From Sphingorhabdus sp. Alg231-15 (GTDB lineage: Bacteria; Pseudomonadota; Alphaproteobacteria; Sphingomonadales; Sphingomonadaceae): a stretch of 64,000 bases of DNA. Below are positions 9,048 through 10,733 of this stretch, piece by piece. The notes under the pieces are model-generated. The model ran no database searches. It was given only the letters and a program-made list of their open reading frames with translations, and had not been told where the DNA came from. The DNA is taken from the NCBI RefSeq assembly GCF_900149705.1, contig NZ_LT703001.1, positions 2,170,001 through 2,234,000 on the forward strand, written 5' to 3'. The position numbers and the translations under genes are program-made. Each line of letters opens with the position of its first letter. Within the stretch, counting starts at the first letter, position 1.

Positions 9048-9123
9048 GCATGAGTAGCTCATACGGTTAGAGCACTAGCTTCAGGCGCTAGGAGAGCGAG
9101 TTCGATTCTCGTCTCATCGCACC
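9048..9123 (+). tRNA. Degenerate tRNA-like gene, anticodon CAG (Leu codon) without a long variable arm
   Basis: The fold reads: D stem GCTC/GAGC (9057-9060, 9070-9073), anticodon stem CTAGC/GCTAG with loop TTCAGGC, variable loop GAGA of four bases, T stem GCGAG/CTCGT with loop TTCGATT. The anticodon at 9082-9084 is CAG, which would read leucine CUG. True tRNA-Leu has a long variable arm, which is absent. The acceptor stem (GCATGAG with CTCATCGC) pairs only with a bulged C, and no CCA end is encoded. It could be a pseudo-tRNA, a phage-derived tRNA, or a tRNA-mimicking noncoding RNA. Confidence 0.55.
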
Positions 9124-9193
9124 TTTGGATAGCTCAATGGGAGAGCACGGAAATTGTAATTCCGGTGTTACAGGTTCGAATCCTGTTCCACTC
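9123..9193 (+). tRNA. Degenerate tRNA-like gene, anticodon TGT (Thr codon)
   Basis: It directly follows the first tRNA-like gene. The D stem is GCTC/GAGC (9132-9146). The anticodon stem CGGAA/TTCCG is perfect, with loop ATTGTAA and anticodon TGT at 9155-9157 (threonine ACA). The variable loop has five bases, and the T stem ACAGG/CCTGT is perfect with loop TTCGAAT. The acceptor stem is poor: only the inner four pairs form (TGGA with TCCA), the outer three are mismatched, and no CCA end is encoded. The intact core and broken acceptor suggest the RNA is not an ordinary aminoacylated tRNA. Confidence 0.55.
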
Positions 9194-9569
9194 TTGGTCT
9201 TAAAAAGACCCCAGCACTCATAATGCTGTTTGAGAATATACCGGGTTCGGGGACCGGCATGTGAATGGCGCGGCGTCTGCGGCGGGCGGGAATCTTCGGA
9301 TTTCCAAACGCCAAGGTCAAAGTGCCTGCCACCATGCCAAACGGTTCGGCTAATGCGTGATGATGGCGCTGTGCCGGGGTCGATAGGAGATGTTTTCGAA
9401 CGCCTCCTCATCCGCCCCGCGCGCTGCAATATCCGCTCCGCCTTGGCCCGCCGCGCGGCATGCCACCGGTCCCTGGATCTTATCCGGGGCCTGTTTGATC
9501 GGGACCAAGTCTATGGCCAATTCCGGCCATGGCAAATGAAGAAGGAGATTGGCGTGAGCTGATATTTGA

Positions 9570-10733
9570 GTGAGTATTATGTTGTATTTGATTGACAAGC
9601 TGATGGGCCGCACACGGGTAACCATCAATGAAAACGAACGGGCGATCTGGCTTTATAAAGGCGAGGTACGCGGTATATTGGGAGCGGGCGAGCATGTCCT
9701 GCCAAACTGGCGGAAGCAATTGCGCATCGAGCGCATGGCGCTGAACAGTGCCGCTTTTGTTTCGGCCTATGAAAAGGCGCTTTTCGAAAAAGCACCGGAT
9801 CAGGCGGATGCGCATCTGACCCAGTACCGGACCGGAACGCACGAGATTGCTGTCATAGAATGCGACGGACGGGTACATTCCGTCCTCTCACCGGATAGCA
9901 AGCTCACGGTCTGGACCGATGCCGGTCCGTGGAAAGCAGAGGTCGTTCCGCTGGAAACCAATCCAGTGATCGCACCGGCTTTGCTGCAGCGGCTGATGAA
10001 AGCCGGCGTGGCAAGCCTGCTTTCCAATGTCCGGATCATCGAGGTGGACAAAGGCCAGATTGGCTTGCTCACTGTCGATGGTCAGATTGCCGGTGAATTG
10101 ACGCCTGGTATCTATGGCTACTGGATGGTTGGTCAAAAGGTGGTCGTGAAGATCGTTAATCTGACGCGGCAGCCGCTCGACGTAACCGGTCAGGAGCTAT
10201 TGACCAAGGATCGCGTCACTTTGCGGATCAACATCTCGGCGGAATACCGGGTGGTTGATCCGGTCAAGGCCGTGACTGAGGTCAAGGACTTTGTCGATGC
10301 GCTTTACCGGGCGCTGCAATATGCGTTCCGGAAAACGCTGGGCGCGATGACGCTCGACCAGATCCTCGAAAAGCAGGTGACGGTTGACGCCGAAGCGGCT
10401 CAGAAAGTCCGGAGCGATATGGCGGCCATTGGTCTGGAAGTATCCGAGATCATCCTGAAGGACGTGATCCTGCCGGGTGAAATGCGGGAGCTTTTGAACC
10501 AGGTTGTTTCTGCGCAGAAAGCGGCAGAAGCTAACGTCATCAAGCGGCGGGAAGAAACGAACGCAACGCGGTCGCTTTTGAACACCGCAAAGGTGATGGC
10601 CGATAACCCGGTCATGCTGCGGCTGAAAGAGCTCGAAGCTCTGGAAAGCATTGCCGGAAAAGTGGACCGGTTGACGGTCAACAACGGCACCAGCGGTTTG
10701 ATGAACGATATCGTCAAATTGACGGACGGTTAG
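9570..10733 (+). CDS. Slipin (stomatin/SPFH band-7 family) protein
   Basis: A 387-residue protein of the prokaryotic slipin type. The SPFH/band-7 domain covers roughly residues 160-330 (EVDKGQIGLLTVDGQ, GIYGYWMVGQKVVVKIVNL, then RVTLRINISAEYRVVDP), followed by an Ala/Glu-rich helical part (QVVSAQKAAEANVIKRREE) likely to oligomerise. SPFH proteins scaffold membrane microdomains, although this one has no obvious N-terminal membrane helix. The start is uncertain: GTG 9570 is given, and ATG 9579 is equally possible; neither has a strong Shine-Dalgarno sequence. It lies 376 bases downstream of the tRNA-like pair. I recall slipin genes among RtcR-controlled RNA-repair loci in other bacteria (unverified), but no rtc gene is in the window. 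Confidence 0.85.
   Translation: MSIMLYLIDKLMGRTRVTINENERAIWLYKGEVRGILGAGEHVLPNWRKQLRIERMALNSAAFVSAYEKALFEKAPDQADAHLTQYRTGTHEIAVIECDGRVHSVLSPDSKLTVWTDAGPWKAEVVPLETNPVIAPALLQRLMKAGVASLLSNVRIIEVDKGQIGLLTVDGQIAGELTPGIYGYWMVGQKVVVKIVNLTRQPLDVTGQELLTKDRVTLRINISAEYRVVDPVKAVTEVKDFVDALYRALQYAFRKTLGAMTLDQILEKQVTVDAEAAQKVRSDMAAIGLEVSEIILKDVILPGEMRELLNQVVSAQKAAEANVIKRREETNATRSLLNTAKVMADNPVMLRLKELEALESIAGKVDRLTVNNGTSGLMNDIVKLTDG

Follow-up and report, generated by a model that had tools for sequence, protein, structure and literature searches.

Tandem tRNA-like modules upstream of a slipin gene: a probable tRNA-mimic RNA conserved with an SPFH protein

Organisation of the slipin locus

The window analysed here is a stretch of 64,000 nucleotides (nt) from Sphingorhabdus sp. 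Alg231-15 (assembly GCF_900149705.1, contig NZ_LT703001.1, positions 2,170,001 to 2,234,000). It contains a gene for a slipin, a protein of the SPFH/Band-7 family, which is preceded on the same strand by two adjacent tRNA-like modules. These modules very probably belong to a conserved RNA that mimics tRNAs and is linked to slipin. The features that define the locus are, in window positions:

9048..9121, + strand: tRNA-like module 1 (ARAGORN tRNA-Leu(CAG) at 9048-9120; Rfam RF00005, 49.4 bits)
9075-9091, + strand: anticodon arm of module 1, CTAGC-TTCAGGC-GCTAG
9124..9193, + strand: tRNA-like module 2 (ARAGORN tRNA-Thr(TGT); Rfam RF00005, 50.1 bits; stems with covariation)
9148-9164, + strand: anticodon arm of module 2, with the loop ATTGTAA at 9153-9159, hypervariable in the Mesorhizobium counterparts
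9212..9228, + strand: arm 3, a stand-alone anticodon-arm mimic CAGCA-CTCATAA-TGCTG with the loop of a genuine tRNA-Met
9570..10733, + strand: slipin (SPFH/Band-7) gene, 387 amino acids, alternative in-frame ATG at 9579

A first-pass annotation, made from the sequence alone, had described an adjacent pair of tRNA-like genes with complete D, anticodon and T stems, and both were recovered by ARAGORN and by Rfam (RF00005 gathering score, 29 bits). The anticodon and T stems are complete in both modules, as are the D stems when read from the sequence. The acceptor stems are incompletely paired, as had been noticed: in a fixed 7-nt register module 1 forms five and module 2 four of the seven pairs. 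The absence of CCA from both modules holds for the window genome and not for its relatives, where 54 of 76 two-module loci have CCA at positions 74-76 of module 1, and 41 of 76 have all seven acceptor pairs in it. Module 2 of the relatives never exceeds six of seven acceptor pairs; it carries CCA in 3 of the 76 loci.

Modules 1 and 2 are the lowest-scoring two among 39 tRNA matches found genome-wide with Rfam. The remaining 37 include a genuine tRNA-Leu(CAG) and a genuine tRNA-Thr(TGT), therefore the modules are not needed for decoding. ARAGORN assigned the same leucine CAG and threonine TGT anticodons as the first-pass annotation, which had rightly found the four-base variable loop of module 1 foreign to tRNA-Leu: the genuine tRNA-Leu(CAG) has a long type-II arm. 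Of the properties of a decoding tRNA, the D, anticodon and T arms are present, and the 7-bp acceptor with CCA and the long variable arm of tRNA-Leu are absent. The anticodon arm of module 1 shares 16 of 17 positions with that of the genuine tRNA-Leu(CAG); the best genuine-arm matches of module 2 and arm 3 reach 11/17 and 13/17. In practice, tRNA finders report the two modules as tRNAs, and arm 3 is not called by them. The window modules are not pseudogenes.

The downstream gene is a slipin, as expected: its product has a Band_7 domain scoring 106 bits (cut-off 23.6). The core pair stands as first delimited, but the whole feature is larger. It is a conserved leader of ~600 nt which holds both modules and arm 3, beginning near 8935 and ending where slipin starts.

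Linkage of the modules to slipin

Homologous loci were collected by protein search, and the best 80 of 87 were used as named loci; one of them (L063), with too little upstream DNA, was left out of the leader counts. Modules were counted here by a sequence pattern, which missed module 1 of L031. By this pattern two modules lie upstream of slipin in 72 of the 79 testable loci and one in the other seven. The T loop of module 2 is 363-516 nt upstream of the slipin match in two-module loci. At the Rfam gathering score two modules were found in nine of ten loci scanned and one in L090.

Seven of 32 genomes of the same genus have this slipin. Leader DNA is common to six of them (the window genome and five others, E < 1e-25), all with the module pair, and the seventh (G006) has a single module. 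The single-module locus of the genus, L023, looks like two modules fused by deletion (1113-1187). None of the 25 genomes without slipin gave a strong leader match: 17 lack any match, and the other eight matched over 55 bases, at 4.3e-4 to 8.3e-4; three of these matches were looked at and are all ordinary tRNA-Thr(CGT).

In a sample of 385 genomes of the class this slipin occurs in six, with two of the proteins just 38-39% identical. Rfam tRNA matches lie upstream in four of the five loci besides the window; in the remaining one, L191, ARAGORN made a relaxed call and our covariance model R1 gave 47.6 bits, a score no higher than that of genuine tRNAs. Slipin is present in 23 of 398 genomes sampled across the phylum, and an upstream Rfam tRNA match was found in 18 of the 22 loci besides the window (in L203 barely, 29.9 bits). 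L212 has a relaxed ARAGORN call only, and L198 is cut by a contig edge. ARAGORN also found three tandem modules (6669-6883) in L217, the same locus as L202, and, in named records from outside the class, two modules in Photobacterium and one in Burkholderia cenocepacia.

The window genome has six SPFH genes, and this slipin is the only one with tRNA matches just upstream (positions judged by eye). Among the 22 largest clusters of neighbouring genes listed for the 80 named loci, only slipin recurs across lineages; most of the clusters represent Mesorhizobium synteny or antisense frames. A search for slipin-less leaders with R1 is weak as a test, since it is dominated by ordinary tRNAs: all 385 genomes match, and genuine tRNAs receive 48-67 bits. 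Only G000 (106.3) and G229 (95.6), both slipin genomes, exceeded 90 bits, followed by G342 (89.2), which has no slipin match. Weak leader DNA matches were seen in other families of the order (G037 and G059, E of 3.1e-5 and 2.2e-4), with a tRNA-like call at each of them (L007 1442-1532 and L008 1501-1570).

Compensated stems and variable loops

In 32 aligned loci, 97.2% of the module-2 stem cells are paired, compared with 84.0% after shuffling (0/500) and 38-49% in slid alignments. All five pairs of the module-2 anticodon stem show double changes with every cell paired, and the outermost counted acceptor pair is unpaired in 14 of the 32 loci. The pairs of arm 3 survive changes as well: of 20 distinct stems, 15 to 20 form any given pair. 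These stems and the arm-3 loops were extracted manually, and the pair listing has at least one register slip (L029). Conservation of the pair near slipin and compensation in its stems had been set beforehand as the check on the idea that these are tRNA mimics tied to slipin, and the idea has passed it.

The 47 Mesorhizobium loci have an invariant module-2 anticodon stem enclosing 18 distinct loops, with a mean loop entropy of 0.97 bits against 0.283 bits in the rest. In 66 pairs of leaders less than 6% divergent, the loop differs by 26.0% and other positions by 4.7%. The module-2 anticodon ranks 8th of 597 three-base windows in variability, so that a few other spots equal it. Anticodons differ between sister leaders, and of the 80 last-module loops with seven bases, 11 lack T33.

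The loops were compared with 49 genuine tRNA loops of two genomes, leaving out module-1 loops that are not 7 nt long or have imperfect stems; the shuffles used here treat distinct loops as independent. Ten of 26 distinct 7-nt loops of arm 3 coincide exactly with one of these (a mean of 3.65 in shuffles, p = 0.00045), as do 16 of 65 loops over all arms (7.71 shuffled, p = 0.00045) and 2 of 15 in arm 1 (0.31 shuffled, p = 0.034). With a flank/anticodon shuffle the p values are 0.015 (arm 3), 0.032 (all arms) and 0.37 (arm 1).

Other features of the leader

The leader and its upstream region hold several further elements:

8903..8930, + strand: tentative promoter TTGTCA-N16-CTAACG, read from the sequence, close in position to the Mesorhizobium element TTGCGA-N16-CTATAG, which is invariant
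8935..9040, + strand: 5' domain with hairpins, the first at 8935-8957, conserved in the Mesorhizobium counterpart and, by eye, in relatives
9196..9210, + strand: small hairpin that separates module 2 from arm 3, read from the sequence, with counterparts of other stem letters by eye
9243..9257, + strand: 5' strand of a long-range complement, GGGTTCGGGGACCGG
9466..9480, + strand: 3' strand of the long-range complement, CCGGTCCCTGGATCT; the alternative is a terminator-like hairpin at 9471-9489
9554..9562, + strand: mini open reading frame (mini-ORF) GTG-AGC-TGA (start-X-stop) behind AAGGAG

The tentative promoter was not called by a simple scanner. The corresponding element of Mesorhizobium is nearly invariant, as is the stretch before slipin. 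Of 83 alphaproteobacterial (alpha) loci, 73 have long-range complementary strands that can pair over at least 9 bp (null 0.20). The competing terminator-like hairpin is found in 46/73 against a null of 0.43, which is not clearly above chance, and we rejected it as a conserved switch. Of the same 83 loci, 67 have the start-X-stop mini-ORF with a Shine-Dalgarno-like sequence (200 shuffles gave a mean of 3.3 and a maximum of 9), and its X codon differs between loci. L087, L089 and L090 have TTG-CGA-CGA-CGA-stop in its place. A longer, conserved plus strand frame within the leader, at 9230-9562, was rejected as a gene candidate: at a cut of 120 residues long frames occur only in L002 and L003 of five relatives, so this frame is taken as a by-product of RNA conservation.

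The slipin protein

The first-pass annotation had envisaged a membrane scaffold. This is not supported, since nearly all of the proteins lack a transmembrane-like stretch and the predicted fold has a match in major vault protein. No such stretch was found in 24 of 25 slipins (Kyte-Doolittle, 19, below 1.6), the remaining one, L077, reaching 1.83. The maximum of the window slipin is 1.38, and it lacks the N-terminal hydrophobic segment of a membrane-anchored slipin/stomatin. Its N-terminal part resembles an SPFH N-lobe (hhalign probability 78, E 1.7e-5). The predicted model (predicted local distance difference test 79, predicted template modelling score 0.57) consists of three beta lobes, an SPFH domain and a long helix, with low confidence for the last part. 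Stomatins were the best matches in a fold search, and the major vault protein was matched over a longer span including the beta lobes and SPFH.

RNA-repair setting

The first-pass annotation had mentioned slipin genes in some RtcR-governed RNA-repair loci. This is true outside the class and does not extend to the window genome. Of the 35 slipin genomes tested, 11 have RtcR (PF06956). Coordinates place it no more than ~6 kb from slipin in 8 of the 14 genomes from outside the class, and close to slipin in 0 of the 21 others. In L217 a divergent rtcR is followed by the three modules, slipin, RtcB, RtcA and RlaP. The annotation of the Citrobacter record NZ_CP151862.1 gives rtcR, slipin and a nucleotidyltransferase, the last being RlaP according to Pfam. 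The Burkholderia and Photobacterium records have a divergent RtcR-like frame, seen by eye without a Pfam test. A zeta toxin family gene (L232 7513-8439) adjoins the paired slipin and nucleotidyltransferase genes of one E. coli chromosome. The E. coli leader and slipin, used together as a query, are at least 80% present in 1,621 of 5,426 E. coli genomes. Within the genus of the window, RtcB occurs in 5 of 32 genomes and, among the seven with slipin, only in G011; a link to RtcB within the genus was therefore rejected.

A sigma-54 motif, scored out of 11 against the consensus, reaches 10-11 in nine of the eleven loci flagged as RtcR-near and is lower in L205 and L221. The score is 11 in E. coli L224 and 7-9 in 11 other unflagged loci; a score of 10 is reached by 1 of 81 alpha loci. 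The leaders of E. coli (L224 5677-5991) and Citrobacter (L225 5679-5991) keep the sigma-54 motif and a T-arm-like remnant.

Related associations appear in two papers: the rtc locus of P. aeruginosa contains the SPFH gene PaFlo8 (PMC13086221), and a slipin and RtcB are among the genes rising in an Anabaena trcR mutant; the regulator concerned is also a repressor of a tRNA operon (PMC10272220).

Possible function and alternative explanations

We propose that the leader of the slipin transcript is a structured RNA, usually with two (one to three) modules and a stand-alone anticodon-arm hairpin, which would be transcribed together with slipin and act as the RNA partner of the SPFH protein. Outside the class homologous units reside in Rtc-type RNA-repair loci, and here the unit stands alone. 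The exposed anticodon loops would be bait for anticodon nucleases, either sequestering the nuclease or reporting its activity when cut, and slipin, perhaps as a soluble vault-like SPFH assembly, may hold or present the RNA. An RNA that displays multiple tRNA-like anticodon loops within the same regulon would fit a bait or a reporter. In one paper, the tRNA-like domain of YrlA is suggested as a possible competitive inhibitor of a nuclease, and a section heading there places most nuclease cleavage in the anticodon loop (PMC7790460). Taken whole, with mimic leader, SPFH partner and bait function, this proposal is evenly poised between holding and failing; the bait mechanism by itself is tentative, though quite conceivable. 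If it is true, bacteria have in this RNA a fast-changing panel directed against toxins that cut tRNAs, separate from the repair enzymes. A bolder version, in which a soluble vault-like SPFH cage carries RNA as an evolving panel of anticodon mimics, rewritten in each lineage to match the tRNAs attacked by local anticodon nucleases and serving as adaptive bait and reporter for tRNA-cutting toxins with or without Rtc enzymes, is speculative and rather unlikely.

A number of observations weigh against the bait proposal. The module-1 loop of Mesorhizobium is 6 nt long in 37 of 47 loci, reads TTTGGG in 30 of 47 and is less variable than that of module 2 (0.53 and 0.97 bits), therefore module 1 is no obvious variable bait. 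Mimicry by module-2 loops is not significant (10/34 against a mean of 6.79, p = 0.081; flank/anticodon shuffle for arm 2, p = 0.45), so their variability can be explained by relaxed constraint. No module was found by ARAGORN or Rfam in the leaders of L221 and L222, nor in those of E. coli and Citrobacter. Neither RtcB nor RtcR is matched in the window genome, in which RlaP was not searched. Hughes et al. detected no YrlA fragments and concluded that YrlA is no substrate of the nuclease in question. In another study, tRNA fragments bound to the sensor domain of E. coli RtcR and not to the full-length protein, and were insufficient for its activation (PMC9650030).

The main rival is a cis-regulatory leader in which the tRNA-like folds, the mini-ORF and the long-range pair form a switch that adjusts slipin expression when tRNAs are cleaved or processed or when translation is under stress, with no role in trans. 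We regard it as possible but clearly on the unlikely side. It agrees with the Mesorhizobium conservation extending to the slipin ribosome site, with the frequencies of the mini-ORF and the long-range complement, and with the terminator-like hairpin of the window. The frequency of that hairpin across loci, not clearly above chance, speaks against it, as does a conserved T-run not being seen by eye, and the likeness of the loops to several different tRNAs is left unexplained. Processing of the slipin transcript at the modules, taken as substrates of RNase P, RNase Z or the CCA-adding enzyme, is improbable: the acceptor pairs and CCA of module 1 in many relatives suit it, but module 2 has an incomplete acceptor and rarely CCA, and such punctuation requires neither variable anticodon loops nor arm 3.

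That the modules are functional tRNAs for decoding or suppression was already disfavoured and is very improbable. Some of them are tRNA-like in score (up to 67.8 bits in L101), yet both genuine counterparts are in the genome, module-1 loops of 6 nt prevail in Mesorhizobium, T33 is sometimes lost, and anticodons vary between sister leaders. Decaying tRNA pseudogenes or remnants of a phage tRNA array, the other origin suggested in the first-pass annotation, are more improbable still. The imperfect acceptors in the window genome and the loss of callable modules in E. coli and Citrobacter would suit such decay; against it stand the compensated stems and a linkage to slipin kept at 38-40% protein identity. 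The phage origin in particular is contradicted by this long conservation and by the lack of any slipin match among 50,697 phage records.

Comparison with known systems

Burroughs and Aravind (2016, NAR 44:8525) are said to describe, in their abstract, RNA-repair loci that combine a novel tRNA-like molecule with an SPFH/Band-7 scaffold. The pairing of a tRNA-like RNA with an adjacent SPFH/Band-7 gene appears to be the same here, and we count it as of an already known kind because of that reported proposal. The features seen here are up to three modules with arm 3, hypervariable loops, the mini-ORF and the long-range pair; the RNA-repair location is found for homologues outside the class, but not in the window genome, which has no RtcB or RtcR match. 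The multi-arm anatomy, the variable loops, the mini-ORF and the Rtc-free form appear to be new detail. The open-licence literature that we searched yielded nothing on a tRNA-like RNA beside slipin, though absence is not proven by this. With named cultivable hosts and defined loops, a vaguely known pairing of SPFH protein and tRNA-like RNA becomes testable.

The YrlA RNA (RF02553) likewise resembles tRNA and is encoded next to its partner protein Rsr/Ro60 in an operon of the RtcR type (PMC7790460). Here the partner gene is of the SPFH type and the modules are in tandem. The relation to Y RNAs considered in the first-pass annotation was not borne out, as the Rfam YrlA model gives the leader 18.5 bits against a gathering score of 69. 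The Rtc operon (rtcR, rtcB, rtcA, RlaP) is matched by L217, where modules and slipin precede rtcB, rtcA and RlaP with rtcR divergent, and the window genome differs from it in lacking RtcB and RtcR matches.

OLE RNA, which acts with the membrane protein OapA, is also a large structured RNA encoded beside its partner protein, but slipin has no membrane helix. The vault particle, composed of major vault protein and vault RNA, may be likened to it in shape: slipin is predicted to have beta lobes, an SPFH domain and a long helix without a membrane helix, and has an RNA encoded beside it. Slipin differs in its 387 amino acids and about three beta lobes, and a vault-like cage with bound RNA would be a putative one. 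Such a partner shape offers a small bacterial model for the role of the vault with its RNA.
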